A DNA stretch of 64,000 bases, from positions 1 to 64,000 of the forward strand of contig CALFCF010000046.1 of assembly GCA_937951345.1 (NCBI GenBank), given 5' to 3'. Under the pieces are notes generated by a model. The model was not told where the DNA came from. It saw only the letters and a program-made list of their open reading frames with translations, and did not search any database. The translations under genes and the position numbers were made by a program. Each line of letters begins with the position of its first letter. Position 1 is the stretch's first letter. This stretch comes from an uncultured Granulosicoccaceae bacterium (lineage in GTDB: Bacteria; Pseudomonadota; Gammaproteobacteria; Granulosicoccales; Granulosicoccaceae). Below, in pieces: positions 23,765 to 63,979 of this stretch.

Positions 23765-24589
23765 GTGGCGTTCGCACAGACTGATCAGAAACGTCCTGTA
23801 CGTTTCACAGAAATCGTAAAGGGTGTGTCCACGCAGGTCCGGGTGCTGCATGCACTTGTGCTTCGCGAGAGCATGACTCGCTATGGCGAGCACAAGATTG
23901 GCTTTCTCTGGGCGATTCTCGAACCTATGGCCATGGTCATTGTGTTTGTTACGATATTCTCCCTATTCAAGTCTTTGACTGCTGACGTACCGATCGCGTT
24001 GTTTATGCTAACGGGTTTGGTGCCCTTCACGTTGTTCCAGGATAACAAGACACAGATGCAGAGTGCTATTGCCAGCAACAAAGCCTTGTTGGCGTTTCCT
24101 CAGGTGACGACATTCGATGTGATATTTGCGCGAAGCATTCTGGAAACACTGATTACCCTGTCTGTGTTTGTTGTTCTGTTGACTATTTTCTATTTATTTG
24201 GCTTTGAATTCCGGGTTGAAAATCCTATTGGAGTACTGGCTGCTTGTGGTTTGATTGCGGCCATGGGCATCGGCGTCGGGTTTATGCTCGCTTCTCTTAA
24301 ACCGCTGCTACCATCAGTGCAACAGCTATCAAATGCTTTACTTGGCAGACCGCTTTTTCTGTCCTCGGGTGTCTTCTTTTCCGCTGAACGTATTCCTGAG
24401 GAATGGCGACACTATTTGCTTTACAACCCGTTGATGCATTGCCTGGAACTGCTTCGAAGTGAATTTTTCTATGAGCTGGATTCACCCTACGGCAGCTGGT
24501 TTTATGCATCAGCCTGGGCAGCGTCGCTACTGGCCCTGGGTTTGCTGATGCATCAGGTTTTACGTAGGCGGGCGGTGGTAGGCCTGTGA
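23765..24589 (+). CDS. kpsM: Capsule polysaccharide ABC exporter, permease subunit
   Basis: Inner-membrane channel of an ABC-2 exporter that moves lipid-linked capsule polysaccharide to the periplasm. The 274-residue protein has six hydrophobic segments and the family's N-terminal amphipathic part (VLHALVLRESMTRYGEHKIG, then FLWAILEPM). The start is GTG. It overlaps the ATPase gene by 4 bases, so the two subunits are coupled. Similar to KpsM, CtrC and BexB. Confidence 0.93.
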   Translation: MAFAQTDQKRPVRFTEIVKGVSTQVRVLHALVLRESMTRYGEHKIGFLWAILEPMAMVIVFVTIFSLFKSLTADVPIALFMLTGLVPFTLFQDNKTQMQSAIASNKALLAFPQVTTFDVIFARSILETLITLSVFVVLLTIFYLFGFEFRVENPIGVLAACGLIAAMGIGVGFMLASLKPLLPSVQQLSNALLGRPLFLSSGVFFSAERIPEEWRHYLLYNPLMHCLELLRSEFFYELDSPYGSWFYASAWAASLLALGLLMHQVLRRRAVVGL

Positions 24590-25248
24590 TTCGACTTCAC
24601 AACATATCTAAAAGGTATAAAAGCTCGGCGGGCATTCATACCGTTCTCGATAATGTTTCCTTGACCTTTCCGGAAGGCAAGAGCATCGGAATACTTGGCC
24701 TGAATGGTGCGGGTAAGTCCACGCTTATCAGAATTATCGGCGATGCTGAGCCGGCAGATAGCGGGTATGTAGAGCGAACTTCCCGGGTCTCCTGGCCTAT
24801 GGGGTATACCGGTGGTTTTCAGTCGAATCTCACAGCCAGAGAAAATGCACGCTTTGTTGCCCGCATATACGGGGAAAATCCGCGCTATGTTGAGGAGTTT
24901 GCTGCTGAATTTGCTGAACTTGGAAAGTATTTTGATGCGCCGCTTCGAACTTACTCTGCCGGAATGCGGAGTCGTTTCTCTTTCTCTGTCAGTCTGGCGT
25001 GTGATTTTGACTACTACCTGGTCGATGAGGCACTCGAAACCGGTGATGCGCGTTACAAGGAAAAATTCAGGCTGGCATTTCAGGAACGTAGTTCAACCGC
25101 TGCGGTGATTTTGGTATCACACAATGAGCAAAACATACGACGCAACTGCGACGCAGCAGCCATACTTAATAACGGTCGATTGGACTTATACGACGACCTT
25201 AAGTCGGCTATGCAGCAATACAAACTCTTACAAACACAGGCTGCCTGA
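24586..25248 (+). CDS. kpsT: Capsule polysaccharide ABC exporter, ATPase subunit
   Basis: Hydrolyses ATP to drive the KpsM channel. The 220-residue protein has Walker A GLNGAGKST (38-46), signature YSAGMRSR (123-130), Walker B YYLVDEAL (143-150), and the switch His in LVSHNEQ. KpsT proteins often show the altered signature SAGM seen here. It starts with GTG inside the end of kpsM. The short length fits KpsT and not the longer O-antigen exporters (Wzt) with a carbohydrate-binding tail. Confidence 0.95.
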   Translation: MIRLHNISKRYKSSAGIHTVLDNVSLTFPEGKSIGILGLNGAGKSTLIRIIGDAEPADSGYVERTSRVSWPMGYTGGFQSNLTARENARFVARIYGENPRYVEEFAAEFAELGKYFDAPLRTYSAGMRSRFSFSVSLACDFDYYLVDEALETGDARYKEKFRLAFQERSSTAAVILVSHNEQNIRRNCDAAAILNNGRLDLYDDLKSAMQQYKLLQTQAA

Positions 25249-25256
25249 CAACCACA

Positions 25257-26348
25257 ATGCAAAGTGTACTTAAAAGTATTGCGGTTGTTGTTGGTATACC
25301 GACGCTGGTTGCAATCGTCTATTTCGGATTCATTGCATCAGATATTTATGTATCCGAGACGAAATTTGCCATCCGATCCAGCGATGGCAGCTCACCAATC
25401 ACAGGTTTGGCAGCAATACTGAGCTCGTCGAGCTCAGGGACGGGTCAGGAATCCACGGTTGTACAAGAGTATGTACATTCTTCAACCATGCTGAATCAGT
25501 TGCTGAAGCGACTGCCTCTGGAAGAGCATTACAGCTCCGGTGATATCGACCGGCTTGCGAGGCTCAAAGCACGCTACACGCGTGAGGAATTGCTTGAGTA
25601 TATGATCGAGCATATGCGCTTATTGCGGGACTCATCGAGTGATGTTTTGACATTGAACGCACGGGCTTTTGATCCACAAATGGCTAAATCGCTGGCTGAG
25701 GAGATTATCCTGCTCAGTGAAGATCTGGTGAATAGAATGTCTACGCGTATCGAGGAAGATTCCTTGCGGCGAGCCAGATATGAGGTAGAACTTGCATCAG
25801 ACAAAGTAACGGATATCAGTACGCGACTTTCGCGTTTTCGCATTGAGAACGAATCAGTTGATCCAGCGCAGGAAGGCAATGCGCTTTTGACGGTAGTTGC
25901 AGGAATTGAAAACCGCTTGGTCGAGACGCGTACCGAGCTTAATGAAAAGCGGGCCTATATGCGTGAAGGTGCGCCTGAAATAGTTGCGCTGAAAAACCGG
26001 TTGAATGCGCTCGAGAAACAACGACGTATCGAACGAAGCCGTTTGATTGACGGCGATTCGCAGAGTCGGGAATTGAGTGATGTGATAGAGGATTACCGGC
26101 CGCTGGTGATCGAACAGGAGCTGGCGCAGCAGCAATATGCGTCGGCACTTACCTCTCTGGAGCTCGCCCGGGCAGAAGTCAGTCGTCAGAAACAGTACCT
26201 TATTACCTTCGTTGAGCCCAATTTACCCGATGAAGCGCTGGAGCCGCGTCGAATTAATAAAATTTTGACGGTGCTGACATTCTCGTTTCTCTTCTACCTG
26301 ATCGGCGGATTAATGTGGTCGGCGCTGCGCGATCATATCGGTCGATAA
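25257..26348 (+). CDS. kpsE: Capsule export inner-membrane/periplasmic protein KpsE
   Basis: Polysaccharide co-polymerase-type protein that spans the periplasm and links the ABC exporter with the outer-membrane channel. The 363-residue protein has one membrane segment near each end (about residues 5-27 and 336-356). A long helical, partly coiled-coil region lies between, and FAIRSSDGSSPITGLAAIL follows the first segment, as in KpsE/CtrB/BexC. C-terminal EPNLPDEALEPRRINKIL is typical. It follows kpsT by 8 bases. Confidence 0.93.
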   Translation: MQSVLKSIAVVVGIPTLVAIVYFGFIASDIYVSETKFAIRSSDGSSPITGLAAILSSSSSGTGQESTVVQEYVHSSTMLNQLLKRLPLEEHYSSGDIDRLARLKARYTREELLEYMIEHMRLLRDSSSDVLTLNARAFDPQMAKSLAEEIILLSEDLVNRMSTRIEEDSLRRARYEVELASDKVTDISTRLSRFRIENESVDPAQEGNALLTVVAGIENRLVETRTELNEKRAYMREGAPEIVALKNRLNALEKQRRIERSRLIDGDSQSRELSDVIEDYRPLVIEQELAQQQYASALTSLELARAEVSRQKQYLITFVEPNLPDEALEPRRINKILTVLTFSFLFYLIGGLMWSALRDHIGR

Positions 26349-26458: not shown

Positions 26459-28138
26459 TTGAAGCCCCTTCACGTGCACTATTGGTCTTATAACAAATAC
26501 ATTTTTTGCTGCTTGTTGCTGCTGGCAACCGGTGTCGTTCAGGCTCAATCCATTGGTGGTGCGGTTATTTCCGATAAATCGCGTCCAGTGGAAACCTCGG
26601 CTCGTGAGCAACTGAGCAATGATCTCGGTGCAGAGGTAACCTCGTCGATAGAAGGCGTGTTGCCTTTTGGTGCAAACCTGTTCAACGGAGGATTCAGTAA
26701 TGATCGCGAGGATGGCATAAATCCCGACTATGCGATCAGCCCGGGGGACCTGATCAGTGTTCGGATATTTGGTGCCAGAAATTTTAATGATGATCTGGTT
26801 GTCGATCATCAGGGCAACATATTCATACCTGAAATAGGGCCGATTCCCGTTCGAGGCGTTGCCAATAGAGATCTTAACCGCCGCGTATCTGATGCCGTAG
26901 GGGCGACATACAAAGATACTGTGCAGGTTTATACCAGCCTGAATGGCAGCCAGCCGGTGGCAGTTTTCGTTACTGGATTTGTAACGAACCCCGGTCGATT
27001 CTCCGGTATCCCGTCTAACTCCGTACTTCACTTTATTGATCGTGCTGGTGGTATCGATCAGGAACGTGGAAGTTACCGTGAAATACTAATACAACGTCAA
27101 GGGCAAACGCTTGACCGTTTCGATCTCTACGACTTTCTGATGCACGGCAGGATCCCGGACGTACAGTTCATGGATGGCGATACGATACTTGTAAAGCCAC
27201 GCGGCGGAGTCGTTGAAGCTGTCGGCGCAATTCGCAACTCGGCAAGATTTGAAATTATCGATCAACAAATGAGCGGCTCGGATCTGATACAGGCGGCACT
27301 GCTCCAATCTGATGTTACTCATGTTGGAGTGGCAGGGGTTCGCAACAGAGAACCGTTTTCTCAATACATGCCAATAACCGAATTCAGTTCGTTCGAGTTA
27401 CATGATGGCGATCAGGTTTCGTTCAGATCGGATACGAAAGACAAGGTTATTGTCGTTGAGGTTGAGGGTGTATTTGAAGGCCCTTCACGTTATACCGTAC
27501 CGCCGAATACACGCCTTATCGATCTGCTCGACCATATTGCAGTAAATCCGGAATTGTCAGATTCTCGTGCAATTTCGCTTCGACGCCAATCAATCGCCGG
27601 GCGTCAACGTGCAGCATTGCAGGAAAGTTTGCAGCGTCTTGAATCGAGGTTTTTGACCACGACAGCATTGACAACAGATGAAACAAGTATTCGAACAACT
27701 GATGCTGAGTTGATAGGTCAGTTTGTTGAGCGAGCCCGCCAGATTCAGCCGAACGGACGTCTTGTGGTTGCAAGTAACGGTAAATTGGCCAATGTGCTAT
27801 TGCAGCAGGGAGATGTAATCAGTATTCCATCGAAAAGCGATTCGGTTTTACTGAGCGGGGAAGTGCTGGTTTCACAAGCACTGTTGCATCAATCTGGTTT
27901 AAGAGCGCGTGACTACATCAAACAATCGGGTGGTTTTGCACAGCAGGCAGATACTGATCGGGTCATTGTTGTACATGCTAACGGTGAAGTGACCACCGGA
28001 ATAAATCCGCGCGTATTACCAGGTGATGAGATTATCGTTTTACCAAGAGTACCTGTGAAGAATCTGCAATTGGCATCAACAATAGTGGATATCTTATATA
28101 AGGTGGCTGTGGCGGCTTCAGTTGCAATCAGGCTCTAG
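26459..28138 (+). CDS. kpsD: Outer-membrane polysaccharide export protein KpsD (Wza-like)
   Basis: Periplasmic/outer-membrane channel component through which the capsule leaves the cell. The 559-residue protein has a signal peptide (YIFCCLLLLATGVVQAQ, cut after AQA-type site near residue 30). A Poly_export domain follows (NPDYAISPGDLISVRIFG, DHQGNIFIPEIGPIPVRGV at about 90-140), then repeated SLBB-type beta-grasp domains (VFVTGFVTNPGRF; VVEVEGVFEGPSRYTVPPNT; VLLSGEVLVSQAL). It lacks a lipobox, unlike Wza but like KpsD. The likely start is TTG at 26459; a GTG four codons later also keeps the signal peptide. Confidence 0.93.
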   Translation: MKPLHVHYWSYNKYIFCCLLLLATGVVQAQSIGGAVISDKSRPVETSAREQLSNDLGAEVTSSIEGVLPFGANLFNGGFSNDREDGINPDYAISPGDLISVRIFGARNFNDDLVVDHQGNIFIPEIGPIPVRGVANRDLNRRVSDAVGATYKDTVQVYTSLNGSQPVAVFVTGFVTNPGRFSGIPSNSVLHFIDRAGGIDQERGSYREILIQRQGQTLDRFDLYDFLMHGRIPDVQFMDGDTILVKPRGGVVEAVGAIRNSARFEIIDQQMSGSDLIQAALLQSDVTHVGVAGVRNREPFSQYMPITEFSSFELHDGDQVSFRSDTKDKVIVVEVEGVFEGPSRYTVPPNTRLIDLLDHIAVNPELSDSRAISLRRQSIAGRQRAALQESLQRLESRFLTTTALTTDETSIRTTDAELIGQFVERARQIQPNGRLVVASNGKLANVLLQQGDVISIPSKSDSVLLSGEVLVSQALLHQSGLRARDYIKQSGGFAQQADTDRVIVVHANGEVTTGINPRVLPGDEIIVLPRVPVKNLQLASTIVDILYKVAVAASVAIRL

Positions 28139-29369: not shown

Positions 29370-32300
29370 ATGAAATACCTAAACAAAGCTGGACGCTCCG
29401 GTACAGAGGCAATCGAACGGCAGGCGAGGTGGAGTCGCTGTTATTTTGCCTTGGCTACGGAACAAAGAAAGTTACTTGCTTTGCTCGATACTTTGGGGCG
29501 AATAGGTTCAGTAAACTTCGAGCTGCTGGAACATGGTCAGGATCTGTACGCGCAGGCAATCGAGCAGCATGCAGCAATAGCATCTGCCCAGGTCGTTTTT
29601 CCGGACGTAGTGTCTGGCGAGAGCGGTCTTCGTTTGTCTGCTTGCACAGAGATGCTCGACAAGATTGCGCAGCGTACAGCATCAGAGGAGATGCGAGAAC
29701 AATTTCTGACCAACCGGATAAAAAGGGTGGAAAGTAAGATCGGTTTTCAGGAATCGATTGTCAAACAGACATTACTTCGTATTCAACCGTTAGTCGAAGA
29801 GGAGAAGATTTCGCAATCCGCGGAAGCAGACATAATCAACAGCTTGTATATAGAGCTGCAAACGCTCTCAAGTTTCCCTGCCGTTTTCATAGAGAATTTT
29901 GATTCAACCGCCTATCTGTCAGCCTATCCTGATTTGGTTCCTGCATTGACTGGTGGTCAATTCGCTTCTCCGGTGATTCATTTCATCAAACATGGTTTTG
30001 ACGAAATACGATCGGGTCAGCGTAGACTAAGAGGTGACAATCCAATTCATCAATTGGTGTTAGGCTCGTCAACGACGACAAACGATAACGACGCGGGCTT
30101 AGAAGGCAAGGGTGGGCTACAGGATCTGTCGAAGCGCTCTGAGGGTGGTTCAGAGACTGAGTCACTGAGTGACTTTGCCAGAGAACAGCGGCAATTTCTG
30201 GAGACTTTAAGAGACACCGGTCTGGTCGATCATCACTGGTATCGGGCGACGCACGGGGATTGTGACGATCCGGATCTGCATTACCTGACAAAGGGGCTTG
30301 TTAATGGATTGGCGCCGAATTTTCTGTTTGATTCAGATTGGTACTATTCGCGTTATTTAATCGATCAACAGGGATTAACGGAAGATTCCAAGCTCATCGA
30401 CATGTACGATGAGTGTAATCTCACCAAAGATGATAAGCGCAATGTGCTTGCCACTGAGCACTATGTGAAGTATGGGATAAAACTTGATCTCGCACCTGGA
30501 CCAGGGTTTGATGTGGAGTGGTACCGGCGCAACTATTTTGACCCCAAGCTGGCTGCTAACCCATTGTCTCACTATCTGACAGTAGGCACAGAGTCCGGCT
30601 ACGCGCCCAACCGTGAATTTGATGTTGAGTATTATTGCCGAAGTAATCCGGACGTAGTCCGCGAAGGTCTGGAGCCGGTACGTCATTTTTATAGTAAAGG
30701 TTGGAAAGAAAATCGAAAGCCGAATGCGCAATTTCAGATAGAGCTGTATCGAAATTGGCATATGAACGGCGAGACATCATTGAACCCGCTTGATCACTAT
30801 TGCGAATTCGGCAGGAATCACGAATTTCCTGTCAATGAAGCAGGTATGCGCGAGTTTCAATTGCTTCATCGCAAAAAACAAACACTTCCCAGTAATATTA
30901 AATACCGTGCGAATCCGGGGGATTCTTTTGAGCATCCACTGTTGAGGGCTGGTAACTCCACGTCTGATATTTCGTGTATAGCGTTCTACCTTCCCCAATT
31001 TCATGAATTTGATGAGAATAACGAATGGTGGGGTAACGGTTTTACCGAGTGGCGGAATGTCGCACGTGGTACTCCACGATTTAAAGGACATTATCAACCC
31101 CGGGTACCGCGTGACCTTGGTTACTATTCTCTGGAAACAGAGGCTACGTTACAACGTCAGGCCGAACTTGCTGTGGCTAATGGAATTGAAGCATTTTGTT
31201 TCTATTACTACTGGTTCAATGGCAAGCGTTTAATGGACAAGCCTTTGGATCAATTTGCAGAATCAGATTCCATTGATATGCCGTTCTGCATTATGTGGGC
31301 GAATGAAAACTGGACACGCACCTGGGATGGTCATGACAGCGAAGTGTTGATTCGGCAGGATTATAATAAGACTGATGATCAATCTTTTATCGAAGATACG
31401 GCGCGATACTTCGATAACCCACGGTATATCCGCGTTGGTGACCGTCCGTTATTCATCATCTATCGACCGGGAATAATTCCTAATGCCCGTGAAACAATCG
31501 CGCGTTGGAGAGAAGCCTGGGAGCAACGCTGTGGGCAAGCACCTCTGATCTTTATGGTCCAGGGTTTTGGTGATACCGACCCTGACGTGTTTGGATTGGA
31601 TGGTGCGCTGGAATTTCCTCCGCATAAAATTGCTGCGGGCCTTCAAGACATCCAGAGTAAACTGGAGATACTCGATAGCGATTTTGCTGGTAGTGTTTTT
31701 TCCTACGCAGATGCTATCAATAGTTCTCTAACAGAAGAGCCCGCTCAATTTCCCCTAGTCAAGACTGTTAGTCCTCATTGGGATAATGATGCACGACGTG
31801 AAGGGCGTGGTTTAGTACTCCATGGCTCAAGCCCGGAATTGTTTCAACAGTGGTTGAATGGCGCTTGCCGGTATGCTGAGAGTTACCCCGTCGAGGGGAA
31901 ATCAATGGTATTTATCAATGCCTGGAACGAATGGGCAGAGAGTGCATACCTTGAGCCTGATGTGCACTATGGATTCGCGTACCTGAATTCGGTCAAGCGT
32001 GTGATGCAGCAGATACCGGATCACAGATCAACGCATAAAATTTTATTGGTAGGACATGATGCGCACCCGCACGGTGCTCAGATGCTGTTACTCAACATTG
32101 GTCGTGTATTGACCAGACAGCTGAATGTTGCAGTGGAGTACCTGTTGTTAAACGGCGGGTCTTTACTCAGCCAGTACGAGTCGGTTGCACCTGTACATTT
32201 AGCCGATGAGTTGTCTGACAAAGAGATATCAAGACTGGTTGACGGGTTGGGATGTCGTATGGCTATTACCAACACGGCTGTTACCGGCAGAATTGTCCCT

Positions 32301-33992
32301 CTATTGAAGCAATCGGATATCCAGGTTGTCTCCCTGGTGCATGAGTTGCCGCGTATTGCCAGAGAGCACGGCTTGATAGAGTCAGGTCGCTTTATCGCGC
32401 AGCAATCTGACATCGTTATATGCGCCTCGGAATTTGTCATGCAGGGCTTCGAATCCTATGCAGGACAGGTGCGCAAAGAACGCGTTGTGCGCCCGCAAGG
32501 CAACTATAAATCTATTGAACTGGATGCTGAAGCAGGATTGGCCATTCGTGAAAAGTTGGGAATTCCGGCTGAACACAAAATTGTAATGAACGCCGGTTTC
32601 GCCGACTTGCGAAAAGGTGTAGACAAGTTTATTTCCATTGCCGAGCAAACCATCCGGCGCCACGATGATATCCACTTTATCTGGGTTGGCGAGGTTGCGA
32701 GTAACCTCAGTCATTGGTTGCTGGACGTTCAGGATACAAGTGCAGAGCAATTGCATTTCGTAGGATATTCGGACGATATGTCTGATTATTACAATGCTGC
32801 AAATTGCTTTCTGTTGACCTCGCGTGAAGACCCTTATCCCACTGTTGTGCTGGAAGCCATGTCGGTGGGATGTGCTCCTGTTATTTTTAAGGGTTGCACG
32901 GGTCTGGAAGAGTTGGTTTCAGATCATGGCCGGGTTGTTGATGCTGCTGATATGGACGAGATTACTGCAGCGTTGTCAGGTTGTCTGTTCAACGATAAAC
33001 CTGAGGATGCGGCTGCGCGCATCGAGGTTATTCGAGAAGAATACGCATTCGATCTTTATTGTTTCGAATTACTCCAGGCACTCGACCCAGCGCTAAAACG
33101 TATATCTGTTGTCGTACCTAACTACAATTACGCTCATCATCTACAGCAGCGCCTGTCTTCGGTGTTAAATCAGACATACCCGGTTTTTGAAGTGATTATA
33201 CTGGACGATGCATCAAGCGATGATAGCCTGGAGGTCATAGATCGGCTGATAAAAAATAGTGGCCGTCTCTGCCGCAGAGAAAACAATACAGTTCAGTCAG
33301 GTAGTGTTTTCCGTCAGTGGGCTAAAGGTATCGAAATGGCTCGGGGAGACTACGTCTGGATAGCTGAGGCTGATGATGATGCCTCACCGGATTTTCTGTC
33401 TGGTCTTGCCGACCGAATGAGCCCTGAATCAGCTATCGCTTTTTCAAACTCTTCGCAAATCGATCAAAACAGTGCTCAGCTGGCAGACGATTACAATTAC
33501 TACTACCAGGAGTTTCCGGTGTTGCAGGATTGCCGAGCATTCTCGATGGAGGGTGCAGCATTTGTTGAAAAGTGCATGAGCGTTAAAAACCCGATACTTA
33601 ACGTCAGTTCTGTAATCTGGAAAAAATCCAATCTCGCGAAAGCGCTGGAGTGCTCGATGGATGATGTTACTGCTTACCGCCTGGTAGGTGACTGGCATTT
33701 GTATCTTGAGGTGCTCAGCCAACCGGAAACGGAAGTATGTTATGTGCCCGAAGCGCTGAACGTGCACAGACGTCATAGTGACAGCGTCACTCACAGCATT
33801 GATCCTCACAAGCATTTAGGTGAAATAGACGCGATCCACAGTTTGATCAAAGTACGCTTCGGTGTATCGTCTGAAATTGAAAGTGATATGGCTGACTATC
33901 TCGGTGAGTTGCGTCAACAATTTGGCATATCTGAGGCTGAATCGGTCCGTTCAACGGCGCCTTCCGATGATTCGGATTCCCGAGCGGCTTGA
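29370..33992 (+). CDS. Giant three-module glycosyltransferase (WbsX + GT4 + GT2)
   Basis: A 1540-residue protein that probably adds several sugars in sequence to one capsule chain. Residues 1-~180 are partly coiled-coil. Residues ~185-520 hold four or five degenerate repeats of the type FDxxYY-x-YPD-x-HY-x-G (examples FDSTAYLSAYPDLVPAL, FDVEYYCRSNPDVVREGLEP). A WbsX-like domain runs from ~533 to 885 (AFYLPQFHEFDENNEWWGNG, FYYYWFNGKRLMDKPL, NENWTRTWDGHD, NAWNEWAESAYLEPD). A GT4 domain follows from ~889 to 1240 (MNAGFADLRKGVDKFI, TSREDPYPTVVLEAMSVGCA). A GT2 domain lies at ~1243-1540 (ISVVVPNYNYAHHL, ILDDASSDDSLE, EADDDA). All three have plausible active sites. It follows the GT61 gene by 35 bases. 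Confidence 0.9.
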   Translation: MKYLNKAGRSGTEAIERQARWSRCYFALATEQRKLLALLDTLGRIGSVNFELLEHGQDLYAQAIEQHAAIASAQVVFPDVVSGESGLRLSACTEMLDKIAQRTASEEMREQFLTNRIKRVESKIGFQESIVKQTLLRIQPLVEEEKISQSAEADIINSLYIELQTLSSFPAVFIENFDSTAYLSAYPDLVPALTGGQFASPVIHFIKHGFDEIRSGQRRLRGDNPIHQLVLGSSTTTNDNDAGLEGKGGLQDLSKRSEGGSETESLSDFAREQRQFLETLRDTGLVDHHWYRATHGDCDDPDLHYLTKGLVNGLAPNFLFDSDWYYSRYLIDQQGLTEDSKLIDMYDECNLTKDDKRNVLATEHYVKYGIKLDLAPGPGFDVEWYRRNYFDPKLAANPLSHYLTVGTESGYAPNREFDVEYYCRSNPDVVREGLEPVRHFYSKGWKENRKPNAQFQIELYRNWHMNGETSLNPLDHYCEFGRNHEFPVNEAGMREFQLLHRKKQTLPSNIKYRANPGDSFEHPLLRAGNSTSDISCIAFYLPQFHEFDENNEWWGNGFTEWRNVARGTPRFKGHYQPRVPRDLGYYSLETEATLQRQAELAVANGIEAFCFYYYWFNGKRLMDKPLDQFAESDSIDMPFCIMWANENWTRTWDGHDSEVLIRQDYNKTDDQSFIEDTARYFDNPRYIRVGDRPLFIIYRPGIIPNARETIARWREAWEQRCGQAPLIFMVQGFGDTDPDVFGLDGALEFPPHKIAAGLQDIQSKLEILDSDFAGSVFSYADAINSSLTEEPAQFPLVKTVSPHWDNDARREGRGLVLHGSSPELFQQWLNGACRYAESYPVEGKSMVFINAWNEWAESAYLEPDVHYGFAYLNSVKRVMQQIPDHRSTHKILLVGHDAHPHGAQMLLLNIGRVLTRQLNVAVEYLLLNGGSLLSQYESVAPVHLADELSDKEISRLVDGLGCRMAITNTAVTGRIVPLLKQSDIQVVSLVHELPRIAREHGLIESGRFIAQQSDIVICASEFVMQGFESYAGQVRKERVVRPQGNYKSIELDAEAGLAIREKLGIPAEHKIVMNAGFADLRKGVDKFISIAEQTIRRHDDIHFIWVGEVASNLSHWLLDVQDTSAEQLHFVGYSDDMSDYYNAANCFLLTSREDPYPTVVLEAMSVGCAPVIFKGCTGLEELVSDHGRVVDAADMDEITAALSGCLFNDKPEDAAARIEVIREEYAFDLYCFELLQALDPALKRISVVVPNYNYAHHLQQRLSSVLNQTYPVFEVIILDDASSDDSLEVIDRLIKNSGRLCRRENNTVQSGSVFRQWAKGIEMARGDYVWIAEADDDASPDFLSGLADRMSPESAIAFSNSSQIDQNSAQLADDYNYYYQEFPVLQDCRAFSMEGAAFVEKCMSVKNPILNVSSVIWKKSNLAKALECSMDDVTAYRLVGDWHLYLEVLSQPETEVCYVPEALNVHRRHSDSVTHSIDPHKHLGEIDAIHSLIKVRFGVSSEIESDMADYLGELRQQFGISEAESVRSTAPSDDSDSRAA

Positions 33993-57316: not shown

Positions 57317-58474
57317 TCAGTGAAAGATAAGCAGAGGATCATCCTGCTTAAGCGCCTCTATTTGCAATTGCTTCAGCAGCTTCTTCTCTGCCGCCCAGTT
57401 GTGGCGGTTACTATCGCCAATCGCATCACCATAGTGATGAGACTGGTTGGCACTGTTCACACCCTGCGTCTCGTCACTGAATGTATCGCTTTTGCTAACG
57501 CCGGAAAATCCATAGGCATTAACACGACATGTCGCAGCCATCAATGTATACAGACACAGTAGTCCGGCGGAAGGGGGTGCATGGAGTTTGGATACCAGAT
57601 CACACCAGATAGCATGGCTTGTACAAAGAAATGTTGTGTCGCTCTGTCTTTCCAGCTGTTTTGACAAATGGTGCCAGTAATTTGAAGGGCGGTGATACGG
57701 AAAATACCCTGACAACCACGTCAAGCGACATGGAAAAGTCTTCAGGTTTTTAAAATCAAATCCCGGGTTAACACACCAGATGTCCGTTCGTTTTCCAGTG
57801 TTCACCTGCAATGAGTCGTCAATAACAAACGTATTGAAACGCAGAACGCAATCAGCTGCATCAATGGAATCACCGTACTTAGCTTGCAATAACTGTGGTG
57901 CATTGCCAACGACTGCCACGTTACTGATAGAGTCTTTGCAAAACAACGTATCAGCATTAATGGTTCTTTTGTGTAGTTTTGCTGCGCGTAGAGCGGCGTT
58001 GATCAGCCACGACTCCAATTGCGAATTTTTAAGCAAAGATTCATTTGCGGAAAGTTCGCGAAGCAGAGTCGGACAGTTCAGCAGCGATCTTGGCTGACGG
58101 GTGATCAGTTGTGTGAAAAAAGTTTGATAGTTTGCCCAGGATTCGTAACGATCTATGGCTGTAGACAGCAGATTAGCCAGTTTGGTGTCCGTGTGCGACC
58201 AGTAGCGTTTTGCGCCAAGTGATTTTGTCCAGTCGTATAGTTGGCCATCGATCTGTAGAGCAGGTCGGCCTGTTGCCAATAGCGTTTGTACGGCAAGAAT
58301 TTGAGCGCGGGTGCTTGTTGTAATCGTCGACGAGGAAGATCCGTTTGCCAGCCGATTGATTCTCGCCAAAAAATCAGGTGACCAGTCGCCGCTTTTGAAT
58401 TGATGCAACGCCTGCCTGTAGATCGTGTGCTTCGCAGGCGCTACGCGGGAAAACTTACGAAAAAAGCTGGTCAA
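57317..58474 (-). CDS. GT29 (sialyltransferase-fold) glycosyltransferase
   Basis: A 385-residue protein with the motifs of family GT29, best known from animal sialyltransferases. Sialylmotif L-like sequence runs at residues 186-230 (VAVVGNAPQLLQAKYGDSID, then LRFNTF and TGKRTDIW). Motif S-like sequence lies at 300-323 (PPSAGLLCLYTLMAATCRVN, then YGF). The HHY at 346-348 and His358 match motifs III and VS. The N-terminal 180 residues are helical and unassigned; no membrane anchor is seen. With KpsC and KpsS close by, a CMP-Kdo donor is as likely as CMP-sialate. It is the last gene of a short minus-strand group. Confidence 0.82.
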   Translation of the reverse strand: MTSFFRKFSRVAPAKHTIYRQALHQFKSGDWSPDFLARINRLANGSSSSTITTSTRAQILAVQTLLATGRPALQIDGQLYDWTKSLGAKRYWSHTDTKLANLLSTAIDRYESWANYQTFFTQLITRQPRSLLNCPTLLRELSANESLLKNSQLESWLINAALRAAKLHKRTINADTLFCKDSISNVAVVGNAPQLLQAKYGDSIDAADCVLRFNTFVIDDSLQVNTGKRTDIWCVNPGFDFKNLKTFPCRLTWLSGYFPYHRPSNYWHHLSKQLERQSDTTFLCTSHAIWCDLVSKLHAPPSAGLLCLYTLMAATCRVNAYGFSGVSKSDTFSDETQGVNSANQSHHYGDAIGDSNRHNWAAEKKLLKQLQIEALKQDDPLLIFH

Positions 58475-58538: not shown

Positions 58539-59864
58539 TTAGCGCATCAACGTGTAAATTTTTTGTGCCAGCGGATGATCACTGTCCTGCAGGAAGCGAT
58601 TCGGATTCTGTCGTAACTTGGTGAATTTCTTTCGCCCGCGGCTCAGAGAGTTTTTTAAACGTCTGGTGATCGAGTCATCGTGCCATACACGTGGCTGATC
58701 GATGACTGGCTCTGGAATCAAAGACTCAGACATCAATTTCGCAGTGTCGATAACGATACCGGGTGCGACTTTCTCAATAGCCCCGGCCACCGAATCAATC
58801 AGAATTCGCGAGTTGTTCGGTAACGTATGCCCCAGATAGTGGGACTGTACAAAATTTTCCAGCACGTTACGCTGTTGTTCGAGCACAGCTGACAGATCAT
58901 AGTTTTCTGACAGAGATAAAAATGCGTCATTCAATGGTTGAACACCTGTCTGATGGGCGCGCCATACGTACACCGGTACACCAAGTCGCAGTGAATCCAC
59001 ATATAACGAACTACCAGCAAAAAGTGCCATGTCGCACTTTGACAGAACAGAGAACAAGTCTCTGTAGTCCCCGCGTCTGTGAGCAAATACCCGGGTATCT
59101 ACAGCCAGGGCATCCTTCAGTGACTCTGCAATCTTTTCAACCTTGGGCGCAGTTTTCAATGTGTCGGTCACGATTGTCAGTGAGCGAAGTGATTCCATAT
59201 CGTGCAGCAGCAATGACAAAGTCTGCTGGTCACTTTCACAAATAGCCGCGTTGTCTTCACCTGCAGTGAACGACAGGAAAACCAATGCATGATCGCGCTG
59301 GCGCGAGTAAAATTCGTCTGAGAGCCGTACAGGCAGCGGTGCGAATTGAGAATAGAACATATCGGGGTCAACATACTCGTCAACCTTGGCAATCTTCTCG
59401 GCTTGTTCCGTAGCGGCGATTACTTTTTCAGTAATCCAGGATTTTTCTTCGATATTTCGACATTCAATATTGATATCGTTTTGTGCAAACGAACCGGGGT
59501 AAGTGGGGCGTATCGTTATTGAAGCACCATCATATCGGTAAAAGTCAGTTTGTGTTTTTTTGTCTCCGCAAACTTCTATCACCAGATTTGCGTTTTTATA
59601 GAGCAATAAGAGTTCATCGGCCGAGAACGCCTGTAGTTCTTTACCCTCAAAAATCTCGCTGGCAGGTTTCCACGATTCCCCGGCGGATTCATTAGCACTG
59701 TTTGTTTCGTAAGCTATTTCACGAACAGTAAAGCTCTGCTCGATAACAGCATTACCGAGCACTTTTCTGATCAGTTGTGAAATACAGGCGATTTGGTGTT
59801 CGAGGCGGGTTTCGCGACGATATTCACCTTCAACTGATTTGGGGTAGAGCAGCAGAATATTCAT
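58539..59864 (-). CDS. Capsule-locus protein of unknown function, GT-B-like
   Basis: A 441-residue cytoplasmic protein I do not recognise. It begins with MNILLLYPKSVEGEYRRETR, a Rossmann-like start. Its second half has alternating hydrophobic strands (HALVFLSFTAGEDN, SLTIVTDTLK, CDMALFAGSSLYVDSLRLGV), a layout reminiscent of GT-B glycosyltransferases, with LFAGSSLYVDSLRLGVPVYV in the place of a donor-binding motif. The C-terminus is very basic (RRLKNSLSRGRKKFTKLRQN), which may bind membrane. Its start overlaps the end of the next upstream gene by 35 bases, so they are co-transcribed. Confidence 0.65.
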   Translation of the reverse strand: MNILLLYPKSVEGEYRRETRLEHQIACISQLIRKVLGNAVIEQSFTVREIAYETNSANESAGESWKPASEIFEGKELQAFSADELLLLYKNANLVIEVCGDKKTQTDFYRYDGASITIRPTYPGSFAQNDINIECRNIEEKSWITEKVIAATEQAEKIAKVDEYVDPDMFYSQFAPLPVRLSDEFYSRQRDHALVFLSFTAGEDNAAICESDQQTLSLLLHDMESLRSLTIVTDTLKTAPKVEKIAESLKDALAVDTRVFAHRRGDYRDLFSVLSKCDMALFAGSSLYVDSLRLGVPVYVWRAHQTGVQPLNDAFLSLSENYDLSAVLEQQRNVLENFVQSHYLGHTLPNNSRILIDSVAGAIEKVAPGIVIDTAKLMSESLIPEPVIDQPRVWHDDSITRRLKNSLSRGRKKFTKLRQNPNRFLQDSDHPLAQKIYTLMR

Positions 59865-60948
59865 GATTACTGTCCGTGTCGGACTCGGTTATAAATTCAA
59901 TTAGGGATGAGATATGCACATCCGCCATGCAGTTTTCAGCAGCATATTTTCTCAGTTGCTCACCACAGATACGGTAGTAGTCGGCATCTGCAAAAGTGTC
60001 GATCGCTGATTTCCACTCATCAGCGCTATTGACAATGCAAAGGCCTTCAACTTCATGCTGGTTCAGATCAGGTAGCGGACTGCTGATGTGTGGTGTACCA
60101 AAGGCTGCAGACTCGATGAACTTGATATGCGATTTGCACCTGTTGAATACCGAGTCGGCAAGCGGAGCAATTGTTAGCCAGGAACCTGCTATTTCTCCGG
60201 GAAGTTCGTAGAAGTCCTTCCATGTTCCTCTGTGAAGTTTTCCCTCATCGAATAACGACTCGTTTACATCGAGTGCGCCGATTATCTTCAGTCGACGGTC
60301 ACGTTGAGTATTTATAGAATCAGCAAGGTATGTCTGAACCTCTGCAAAATCATGGTCGTGGCTGCGTGTTCCGGGTAGATAGCTAACGTCGCCCGACAGT
60401 GTGCCATTGTTTTCAATTAGCCGGGCCGCCGGATCTTCTTGCAGTAAGTGTTTGCTGTACAGCATCCAGAAGTTCGACAAAGCATTGGGTAAATGCAGAA
60501 TTTCTGCATCCGGTGCTTTGCGGCCTAAATGAGCGGCAAGTTCTTTGGTTGAAACAACAAATCGATCAAATAGTGACAAACAATTTAAAGAACGTTGGTA
60601 CTGAGCCTCAACCAGATCAGGGGTTGCTTGAGCGTTTCTGACAACTGGTGATGCTTGAGCCAGATCCGGATCGAAAATCAAATCATCAAAATCTGCGACC
60701 AGTGTTATATTTCTGGCTTTGCAGGTATTGGCGATGTTTTTCAAGCGCCTATCCATTGTTGGGCGTAACACGATGACAACGTCATAGCGTTCAACACTGG
60801 CTGGGTCTATTACATCAAGTACTCCAACATCAACGACATAGCGTTTGTTTCGCAATGCCTCGGCGTAGTTATAACAACGATAGCGGGTTGATGCATCACG
60901 GTAGGGAGCAGCTGCGAATCGAGTATTAGTCAGATATAAAATATTCAT
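59830..60948 (-). CDS. GT4-like glycosyltransferase
   Basis: Predicted GT-B glycosyltransferase of 372 residues. It opens with MNILYLTNTRFAAAPYRDAS, has VVIVLRPTMDRRLKNIANTC, LVADFDDLIFDPDLAQASPV and FVVSTKELAAHLGRKAPDAE. The donor-side motif is FNRCKSHIKFIESAAFGTPH, similar to the CKSxxKYLEA motif of other GT4 proteins. It is the first gene of a three-gene minus-strand group with the unknown 441-residue protein and the GT29 protein. Confidence 0.8.
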   Translation of the reverse strand: MNILYLTNTRFAAAPYRDASTRYRCYNYAEALRNKRYVVDVGVLDVIDPASVERYDVVIVLRPTMDRRLKNIANTCKARNITLVADFDDLIFDPDLAQASPVVRNAQATPDLVEAQYQRSLNCLSLFDRFVVSTKELAAHLGRKAPDAEILHLPNALSNFWMLYSKHLLQEDPAARLIENNGTLSGDVSYLPGTRSHDHDFAEVQTYLADSINTQRDRRLKIIGALDVNESLFDEGKLHRGTWKDFYELPGEIAGSWLTIAPLADSVFNRCKSHIKFIESAAFGTPHISSPLPDLNQHEVEGLCIVNSADEWKSAIDTFADADYYRICGEQLRKYAAENCMADVHISSLIEFITESDTDSNHEYSAALPQIS

Positions 60949-61186
60949 GAATTTTCAGGTCAGCATCTACCGACATTCTCCGCACAAGCACCGTGGGTGC
61001 TGCTGCAAGTCACAGGCCACAGCAAACTGCAATTTGATTCTTCCCGACATTTGCTACGGCTGGTAACTTGCACCGGTAAAACGCCTGTTTTCTTGTCCAT
61101 TTTTCAACTGTTGATACCCATCGAGCTATGGCGTGAAAACTGCAAGATAGTCACACCTTCATCAGACGGTTTTTCCTGTGAGCTCC

Positions 61187-61831
61187 ATGCCATCAGCAGC
61201 CAGCCAAATGGCACAAGATTCTGATCGTTCTTCTGATGCGTCCAGCCCTGTTGCATCTCTGATAAAAGAACTTATCGACATCAATACAGAAATGTTTGAT
61301 ATCAAAGAGACAATTGTTGCCAAGGGCGTCCCCTACAACACATTGAATGCGCTGGTTGAGTTGTCCACAGTGGGTAAATCGGAAGATCTAATCCAGTTGA
61401 AAGAAAGCGCATTGCAATCTGCTACGTCGCAATATGGTGCCGGTGCAGTCAAGTCGATGGAGCTTGATCAGGCATTAGAGAAGTTAACCGAGCTGGAAGA
61501 AGATCTTGCTCACGTGCGCAAGATATCGCGCGGACGTAACATGGATCCGCAGGCTACGAATCTGTTGACCAATGTCATTCGGCAAAACCCGGGCGATAGT
61601 GGTGAAAAAGTACTCAATACGATGTTCGATTATGCTGCCGCCTGCGAAATTAACGTGAATGGGCGGGTGGCTGGTGTTATCGAGGCAATTGACGACGAGC
61701 CTGAATCGGTTTTACCGAAAATCGAATTAGATGATCCGCGGGATGCCGGATGGCGACAGCATAAGCGATTGATGATAGATATTGCCATTGGCCTGGTGAT
61801 GTCAATCTGTGCGCTGGCTTTACTGGTCTGA
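61187..61831 (+). CDS. Tail-anchored coiled-coil protein upstream of kpsC
   Basis: I do not recognise the family. From the ATG at 61187 it has 214 residues. It has a Ser-rich N-terminus, two amphipathic helical stretches (SPVASLIKELIDINTEMFDI; KSMELDQALEKLTELEEDLA), a conserved-looking central part (RKISRGRNMDPQATNLLTNV) and one hydrophobic C-terminal segment (MIDIAIGLVMSICALALLV). It should thus be anchored in the inner membrane by its tail, facing the cytoplasm. It lies 57 bases before kpsC in the same direction, so it may scaffold the capsule enzymes. A GTG at 61178 is an alternative start. Confidence 0.7.
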   Translation: MPSAASQMAQDSDRSSDASSPVASLIKELIDINTEMFDIKETIVAKGVPYNTLNALVELSTVGKSEDLIQLKESALQSATSQYGAGAVKSMELDQALEKLTELEEDLAHVRKISRGRNMDPQATNLLTNVIRQNPGDSGEKVLNTMFDYAAACEINVNGRVAGVIEAIDDEPESVLPKIELDDPRDAGWRQHKRLMIDIAIGLVMSICALALLV

Positions 61832-61888: not shown

Positions 61889-63979
61889 ATGCCTGTGAGC
61901 GCACTTACATCTGCTTTTACCTATTCATCCGGAATACAGCGAATAAAACGAATAACGAACTTTCTAGGCGTTGATGCTGTGCTTCCTCCTGCGCGTATTG
62001 GTCGTGAAGAGCATGAAGCGGTTTGCGCATTGGTCTGGGGTCGTAAACAGACTGCCGAGAGAACGCGAAAATGGGCAGCTACACAGAACCTGCCAGTGTG
62101 GCAACTAGAAGATGGATTCATACGCACTGCCGCAAGTAATGCGCACTCACGGAACACCTATTCAATTGTCGTTGATGAAGTTGGTATCTACTACGATGCC
62201 AACGTGCCCAGTGCGTTGGAAAATTTTCTGAATGTCGACGCGAACTTTTCTGCTTTGGCTACCGAAGCTGATCTACGTCGTTACATACAGCGCTGCCATC
62301 AAAAAATAGTTGGCTCGCACGTAACGAAGTACAACTACTGCGCAGATGCACAGTTGCCTGCAGCGTTTACCGCAGGCGAGCAGCCAGTAATTCTGGTGAT
62401 AGATCAAACTCGGGATGATGCATCGGTGAATTTCGGCGGTATGTCCAAAGAGGATTTTGCCGATATGCTGGATTCAGCGATAGACGAGCATCCGCACGCC
62501 CGCGTTATTGTTAAAACTCATCCCGATGTTGTCGCAGGCAGAAAACAGGGATATCTCACAGCGTTAGCAGAACAGCGGTCAATACCTTTGTTGAGCGAGA
62601 GTATAAATCCGTTTTCGGTGCTTAAACAGGTGAATCATGTGTATTGTGGTACCTCGCAAATGGGGTTTGAAGCTCTGCTGTGCGGCAAACCGGTTACGCT
62701 TTTTGGTCTGCCGTTCTACGCAGGCTGGGGAGTGACTGATGATCGCAAGCAAATACCACGTCGCACTGCGTCACGATCTGTTGAAGAATTGTTTTATGCA
62801 AGCTACGACTGGTATACACGTTACTGTCATCCGGTAACCGGTGCACATTGGTCACTAGAACAATGCATTGATCATGTGATTCTGCAAAAGCAAAACTTTG
62901 AGCGTAATGCCAGATCGTTTGTGGGTGTCGGGATCACGCCGTGGAAACGGCGTTATGTTCGACAGTACCTGCGATCGCCGTCGGGATCGCTAACTTTCAC
63001 CAGATCAGGCGAAGTAGCAAAACAGATGATTGATCCTGCAGCAGTTGCTGTAACGTGGAATTATCGTGCGATTGATGCTTCGCATTCTTTAGTAAAACAA
63101 GGCAATGAAGTATGGCGCATGGAGGACGGGTTTCTTCGCAGTCAGGGGCTGGGTTCTGACTTTGCCGCTCCGCAATCTTTGGTGTTTGATCAGGCAGGAT
63201 TGTATTTTAATTCCCATGCCACCAGTGACTTGGAAGACTTACTGAACAACCATGACTGCACGTTGGCTGAAATTCATCGGGCGAGTAGTTTAATTTCGCT
63301 AATTATTTCACGCCGCCTGTCGAAATATAACGTGGGTAGTAAAAATAATCCGGAGATATTCTCCGAGGCCCCTGAAGCGGCACGCAAACTGTTGGTAGTC
63401 GGTCAGGTCGAGAATGATGCCTCGCTACATTATGGTTGCAGGGATGTTACCGGTAATGAGGATCTCTTGAAAACTGTTCGAGAACAGAATCCGGAAGCCT
63501 GGATTGTGTATAAGCCTCATCCGGATGTTGTTGCGGGTAATCGAGAGGGTGCAGTCAGTGCGACGGTACTTGAGGCAACAGTAGACAGCCTCTGTAGTGA
63601 CGTTGATGTTATTGATTGCATCGACGCCTGCGATGAGCTGCACACGATGACTTCCTTGAGTGGCTTTGAAGCATTGCTCAGGAAAAAGCAAGTAGTTACT
63701 TATGGAATCCCTTTCTATTCAGGTTGGGGACTGACAACGGATCGTCATACGGTTGATCGCCGATCACGGATCAGGACACTTGAAGAATTGGTGTACTGTA
63801 CGTTGGTCGCGTACCCACGGTATTTGGATATAGAGACCGGTGAATTTATAACACCGGAAGATCTGGTTGTAAGCGTTGGCAGTAGTCGCAACATGAAAAA
63901 AAATAAAAATTCGTACTGGGCAGAACGACAGGTTCGTAAAATAAAAAACGTTTGGCGAGGATTGAACTATGCGCCGTAA
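61889..63979 (+). CDS. kpsC: Capsule beta-Kdo transferase KpsC
   Basis: Builds the poly-Kdo linker that joins group 2 capsule polysaccharides to phosphatidylglycerol. The 696-residue protein has two related transferase halves. The first shows WQLEDGFIRT, IDQTRDDASVNFGGMSKEDF, VIVKTHPDVVAGRKQG and GLPFYAGWGVTDDRK. The second shows WRMEDGFLRSQGLGSDFAAP, GQVENDASLHYGCRDV, VYKPHPDVVAGNREG and GIPFYSGWGLTTDRH. The duplicated HP motifs are typical. The length is that of KpsC (about 675). It overlaps kpsS by 11 bases. Its presence fixes the capsule as ABC-dependent and Kdo-linked. Confidence 0.95.
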   Translation: MPVSALTSAFTYSSGIQRIKRITNFLGVDAVLPPARIGREEHEAVCALVWGRKQTAERTRKWAATQNLPVWQLEDGFIRTAASNAHSRNTYSIVVDEVGIYYDANVPSALENFLNVDANFSALATEADLRRYIQRCHQKIVGSHVTKYNYCADAQLPAAFTAGEQPVILVIDQTRDDASVNFGGMSKEDFADMLDSAIDEHPHARVIVKTHPDVVAGRKQGYLTALAEQRSIPLLSESINPFSVLKQVNHVYCGTSQMGFEALLCGKPVTLFGLPFYAGWGVTDDRKQIPRRTASRSVEELFYASYDWYTRYCHPVTGAHWSLEQCIDHVILQKQNFERNARSFVGVGITPWKRRYVRQYLRSPSGSLTFTRSGEVAKQMIDPAAVAVTWNYRAIDASHSLVKQGNEVWRMEDGFLRSQGLGSDFAAPQSLVFDQAGLYFNSHATSDLEDLLNNHDCTLAEIHRASSLISLIISRRLSKYNVGSKNNPEIFSEAPEAARKLLVVGQVENDASLHYGCRDVTGNEDLLKTVREQNPEAWIVYKPHPDVVAGNREGAVSATVLEATVDSLCSDVDVIDCIDACDELHTMTSLSGFEALLRKKQVVTYGIPFYSGWGLTTDRHTVDRRSRIRTLEELVYCTLVAYPRYLDIETGEFITPEDLVVSVGSSRNMKKNKNSYWAERQVRKIKNVWRGLNYAP

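Follow-up and report, generated by a model that had tools for sequence, protein, structure and literature searches.

A GT29-family protein of 385 residues, encoded at positions 57317–58474 (minus strand) of the 64,000-nucleotide stretch of Granulosicoccaceae DNA analyzed here (the window), most probably functions as an inverting CMP-Kdo transferase that adds α-linked Kdo to a capsular polysaccharide, a reading to which we attach a probability of about 0.65. The gene belongs to the sialyltransferase family and lies in a capsule cluster of a genome without a sialic acid pathway, and Kdo addition is therefore its most likely role.

Family Assignment and Sialylmotifs of the Window Protein

The open reading frame lies exactly where the first-pass annotation had drawn it, in a frame that stays open over 409 codons. 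The assignment of a TTG codon at 58474 as the start is uncertain; a clear ribosome-binding site was not seen there, and similarity to the N terminus of a congener protein (L025) supports a start near this position. All residue numbers given below are counted from this TTG codon.

The window protein matches the Pfam GT29 profile PF00777 with an E value of 9.4e-15 (55.2 bits against a cut-off of 23) and is the only PF00777 match in its 4.49-Mb genome, with none found in 14 control genomes. In a congener, the corresponding protein (L065) covers profile positions 30–270 of 272. A clade profile constructed from the window protein and ten relatives matched eight PDB sequences at E < 1, and every one was a GT29 sialyltransferase, the best being ST8Sia3 (5bo6, 9.3e-12) and ST3Gal1 (2wnb, 4.3e-10), whereas a search of the window protein against the NCBIfam models gave no match. 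The first-pass annotation had read the protein as GT29, and both the Pfam match and the exclusive recovery of GT29 chains from the PDB bear this out; on sequence grounds, the window protein is a true member of the family.

The GT29 domain follows an N-terminal extension of ∼165 residues of unknown fold and contains all four of the sialylmotifs previously reported for it. Motif L comprises residues 186–237 (VVGN...G..IDAAD.VLRFN...GKRTD; 57764–57919), motif S residues 299–323 (APPSAG...GF; 57506–57580), motif III residues 347–350 (HYGD; 57425–57436), and motif VS residues 358–363 (HNWAAE, with the spacing H358-x4-E363; 57386–57403), all on the minus strand. Seven residues (N191, N214, S302, G304, H347, H358, and E363) are invariant across 11 aligned sequences, in which the relatives are 22–36% identical to the window protein. 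N191 and N214 of motif L align with the donor-binding N147 and N170 of human ST3Gal1, and S302/A303 of motif S with S268/T269, which contact Neu5Ac; H347 of motif III is found at the position of the catalytic acid H299 and H358 of motif VS at that of the catalytic base H316 (residue roles in human ST3Gal1 as given in PMC6884586).

Work on the vertebrate enzymes describes a disulfide, C142–C281, as conserved in all GT29 members (PMC6884586). The C142 position is occupied by V186 in the window protein and is not a cysteine in the aligned relatives. Because other bacterial GT29s also lack a cysteine at this position, the disulfide is treated here as a feature of the secretory-pathway branch and not of the whole family. 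No membrane anchor was apparent by eye in the window protein. An AlphaFold2 prediction made from two sequences only, the window protein and that of Thiothrix (L024), gave a pLDDT of 33.8 and a pTM of 0.25 and was set aside as too low in confidence.

Organization of the Capsule Locus

The surrounding locus is an ABC-transporter capsule locus with a poly-Kdo anchor, in agreement with the Kdo-linked capsule locus of the first reading. It includes kpsC (61889–63979, plus strand; match to PDB KpsC at 3.6e-66), encoding the dual-module retaining β-Kdo transferase for the capsule linker, which is followed by kpsS (contig positions 64020–65306), starting 20 bases beyond the edge of the window. A small conserved open reading frame of no known family (61178–61831, plus strand) precedes kpsC, and the two are divergent from a group of three minus-strand genes. 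These comprise the GT29 gene, a conserved open reading frame of no known family upstream of it (58539–59864; 60–66% identical in two congeners), and a gene for a GT4-like glycosyltransferase (59830–60948; sub-threshold match to Glyco_trans_1_4). The product of 58539–59864 had no match in Pfam, NCBIfam, PHROGs, or the PDB, although the sequence is suggestive of a GT-B enzyme's C-terminal half.

Capsule export genes of the kpsM, kpsT, and kpsE type are found at 23765–26348 and a gene for a KpsD-like polysaccharide export protein at 26459–28138, all on the plus strand, and glycosyltransferase and sulfotransferase genes are present in the capsule region up to 47 kb. The same region encodes a 1,540-residue fusion of WbsX, group-1, and family-2 glycosyltransferase domains (29370–33992).

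Donor Supply in the Genome and Its Congeners

NeuB is the synthase family needed for the synthesis of sialic, legionaminic, and pseudaminic acids. It was not found anywhere in the draft genome (4.49 Mb, 95.5% complete), and the lack of a CMP-sialate synthesis gene, first remarked on for the window, extends to the genome as a whole. The sole genomic protein of the CTP_transf_3 (KdsB/NeuA) family is KdsB (TIGR00466, 259 bits against a cut-off of 155), the gene for which adjoins an lpxK-like gene. The CMP-sialate supply on which a CMP-Neu5Ac-using sialyltransferase depends is thus not seen in the draft genome, and the two things expected of a capsule Kdo transferase, a kps locus with a Kdo anchor and CMP-Kdo synthesis (kdsB), are both present. 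The neuA/neuB search called for in the first-pass annotation thus comes out in favor of Kdo.

Two congeners likewise carry GT29, have no NeuB, and encode a single CTP_transf_3 protein, which is KdsB-like. A further genome (G773) and a Thiothrix MAG (G074) also combine GT29 with the absence of NeuB; each has a second, weak CTP_transf_3 match that, on our reading of the sequences, looks MobA-/GlmU-like. From this gene content, the only CMP-ulosonate that these GT29-bearing genomes are seen to make is CMP-Kdo. In a draft assembly such as that of the window, failure to find NeuB and NeuA is strong, though not absolute, evidence that they are absent.

This bears on the possibility that a true nonulosonate, be it sialic, legionaminic, or pseudaminic acid, is what the window GT29 transfers, with the genes for its synthesis missing from the draft or the donor obtained otherwise. 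Three congeners have no NeuB and only a KdsB-like synthetase, and it is unlikely that both genes were missed in three drafts that are 84–96% complete. Evidence on either side of this possibility also comes from the genomic settings of GT29 in other bacteria.

Gene Linkage and Phylogeny of Bacterial GT29 Proteins

GT29 was found in ten genomes of the window's order (48 genomes, one family). A homologue of the GT4-like transferase at 59830 is present in all ten of these GT29 loci and also in Thiothrix, and in nine of them the distance from GT29 to kpsC is no more than about 7 kb, the tenth being on a 4.7-kb contig that ends first. In Thiothrix, GT29 and kpsC share a strand, and 16 bases separate the end of GT29 from kpsC downstream. 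Neither NeuB nor a nonulosonate CMP-synthetase was found near GT29 in the stretches examined of the ten family loci and Thiothrix, which argues against a nonulosonate donor; elsewhere in the genome, NeuB is encoded by six of the ten GT29-bearing family members, none of them of the window's genus.

A different arrangement is found in another family of the phylum (f223), where GT29 occurs in 32 of 198 genomes. Five of these proteins (L073–L077, from G857, G830, G840, G837, and G918) group together with support of 85/96, and in each case NeuB is encoded no more than a few kb away and a CMP-synthetase no more than 10 kb away; these five have the appearance of true nonulosonate transferases, possibly acting on LPS. 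WaaA-like and UDP-GlcNAc epimerase-like genes also adjoin GT29 in two or more of the five loci. In L015 and L013/L014, GT29 near NeuB is likewise near a CMP-synthetase, and the GT29s of G272 and G279 are linked to NeuB. Because the GT29s near NeuB are also near a CMP-synthetase in these other clades, the contrast with the kps-linked loci is informative, and since some bacterial GT29s adjoin both genes, the family would serve both kinds of donor. Some bacterial GT29s are thus accompanied by nonulosonate genes and others are not, the window version being among the latter.

Several further GT29-like proteins were encountered. L006 and L007 (G272 and G053) are very divergent and have long N-terminal regions of repeat-like appearance; the G272 gene is linked to a CMP-synthetase in addition to NeuB. 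A third group (L035–L062; f223, e.g. L080 and L082) consists mostly of short GT29s in which SLSG replaces the motif III histidine; most of these genomes have no NeuB, and the neighboring genes, at a glance, look housekeeping. One GT29 relative was found in a scan of genome contigs and none in viral contigs and phage records, and hence no phage link is drawn.

Co-occurrence of GT29 and NeuB across whole genomes was also considered as an indicator of the donor and set aside as uninformative, NeuB being present in 8 of 32 GT29-positive versus 44 of 166 GT29-negative genomes of f223 and in 6 of 10 versus 11 of 38 in the window's family. Gene linkage separates the groups better.

In the phylogenetic tree, the window protein falls into a 15-row clade with support of 97/91. 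This clade brings together all proteins of the window's family, those of Thiothrix and G116, one protein each from an E. coli kps locus and from Sinorhizobium mexicanum, and one of f223. Several of its branches are long, and the inner order is therefore unsure. Thirteen of the 15 members have the motif III histidine, which none of the other bacterial GT29s in the comparison shares. Alanine occupies position 303 in 9 of the 12 proteins that come from the window's family, Thiothrix, or G116 and in none of the NeuB-linked GT29s; as a candidate donor-specific residue, Ala303 tracks the phylogeny and serves as a lead only, and donor choice cannot be read from any single residue of the sequence.

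The Sinorhizobium mexicanum member, an unannotated gene on a plasmid (L108:9317–10552), is located in a kps-type locus with NeuB-like and epimerase-like genes. Its donor likely differs from that of the window protein, and with a clade member near a NeuB-like gene, donor choice may vary inside the clade. This enzyme, the NeuB- and CMP-synthetase-linked GT29s of other clades, and the family relatives with NeuB elsewhere in their genomes all lend weight to nonulosonate transfer by the window protein; set against the gene content of the congeners and of the kps-GT29 loci of the family, we consider such a donor unlikely.

Proposed Function

Inverting transfer from CMP-β-Kdo yields α-Kdo and fits GT29, families GT99, GT107, and GT140 being retaining. 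In the mechanism that we favor, the window protein would act as a cytoplasmic inverting GT29 transferase with CMP-β-Kdo from the KdsB of the genome as donor and, alongside the adjoining GT4-like transferase, would place an α-linked Kdo residue on the capsule polysaccharide as it grows. By analogy with ST3Gal1, H347 in motif III would serve as the acid acting on the phosphate, and H358 in motif VS as the base acting on the acceptor hydroxyl. Whereas the family, the motifs, the locus, and the lack of another detectable CMP-ulosonate pathway come directly from the data, we infer that Kdo is the sugar donated, that it becomes α-linked to the capsule, and that the enzyme is cytoplasmic. The suggestion that it may decorate the capsule with Kdo, made in the first-pass annotation, is probably right, judging from a genome that encodes KdsB only and no NeuB.

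Alternatively, the window GT29 may have abandoned CMP-ulosonates in favor of a different sugar nucleotide. In plants, the GT29 member GALT29A is reported to be a galactosyltransferase, and dTDP-sugar-synthesis-like genes are present on the same contig as the window gene. GALT29A is one of three GT29 members in Arabidopsis (PMC11288761). Against such a change of donor, the residues aligned with N147 and N170 and the two catalytic histidines are invariant in the aligned clade sequences, though their conservation by itself does not specify the sugar; we regard this explanation as distinctly doubtful.

Among the genes of the locus, GT29 ranks near the bottom in conservation, with 29–36% identity between congeners versus 43–68% for kpsC, kpsS, and two neighboring open reading frames, as expected if the acceptor differs among capsule types. 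That the divergence instead marks a GT29-like protein that is devoid of transferase activity or confined to the KpsC/KpsS linker step is very improbable, as the catalytic motif residues are invariant despite it, a pattern that fits a variable acceptor, and E. coli is established to build its capsule Kdo linker with KpsS and KpsC alone.

If α-Kdo transfer is the function of the window protein, its interest reaches beyond this locus. The assignment, with proof, of the inverting α-Kdo transferases of capsules has been noted as a gap (PMC13171606, PMC7387560), and a small bacterial GT29 in a genome seemingly making CMP-Kdo only offers a clean test of Kdo use by the family. The question also bears on what the ancestor of the animal sialyltransferases transferred. 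We tentatively raise the possibility, short of an even chance, that bacterial GT29s are ulosonate transferases switching between CMP-Kdo and CMP-nonulosonates, that the kps-linked clade represents the missing inverting α-Kdo capsule transferases, and that, in the family ancestral to the eukaryotic sialyltransferases, Kdo transfer perhaps dates back as far as sialyl transfer or further.

Comparison with Known GT29 Systems

The description of GT29 as mainly eukaryotic holds, with the amendment that bacterial members have been reported since 2018, when Petit et al. described them as sialyltransferases in alpha-, gamma-, and epsilonproteobacteria (PMC5811610). The window protein belongs to the same CAZy/Pfam family and shares the sialylmotifs; unlike those proteins, which were called sialyltransferases from sequence alone, it comes from a genome with no detectable sialic acid pathway, and its gene lies with kpsC and kpsS. 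The L, S, and III motifs of the vertebrate enzymes ST3Gal1 and ST8Sia3 align with the clade profile of the window protein, which differs from them in having V186 at the C142 position and no apparent membrane anchor.

A precedent for the proposed function is the E. coli K6 locus, for which a GT29-GT107 protein was proposed in 2026 to take part in a poly-Kdo system, with MALDI-MS data consistent with a Kdo homopolymer (PMC13171606); the K6 capsule is listed as α-pyranose Kdo (PMC12887879). The Kdo idea for a capsule GT29 is consequently no longer new (PMC13171606), and Kdo transfer, proposed before for this one E. coli capsule type, still has the standing of a proposal for bacterial GT29 enzymes. 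As in K6, the GT29 domain of the window protein occurs in an ABC-transporter, Kdo-anchored capsule locus; in contrast to the dual K6 protein, known to us by description only, it has no GT107 module and a short N-terminal extension. K15 was dropped as a parallel because the protein that its investigators identified as the α-Kdo transferase does not match GT29 (PMC7387560).

Among 5,426 complete E. coli genomes, seven carry GT29. The two loci read (L107:11029–12564, in NZ_CP137739.1, and L109:14001–15536) encode GT29 proteins of 511 residues, contain kpsF, kpsE-, kpsD-, kpsC-, and kpsS-type genes and a kpsU-type kdsB, and have no neu genes; GT29 adjoins genes for a hexapeptide-type acyltransferase and a GT2 protein. 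WP_063100603.1 (NZ_CP137739.1) resembles the window protein in its place in the 15-row clade, its kps locus, and the absence of neu genes, but is 24% identical to it, is longer at 511 residues, and has no motif III histidine.

Finally, Arabidopsis MGP2/RCKT1 is a GT29 protein that was assigned in 2024 as an inverting CMP-Kdo transferase, its mutant losing Kdo from RG-II (PMC11288761). It parallels the reading favored here in being a GT29 assigned to Kdo transfer in a host that makes little or no sialic acid, and differs in being a plant protein with a transmembrane anchor. With bacterial GT29s, the K6 GT29-GT107 protein, and a plant GT29 Kdo transferase already reported, the window protein adds to a known, still poorly tested kind of enzyme.
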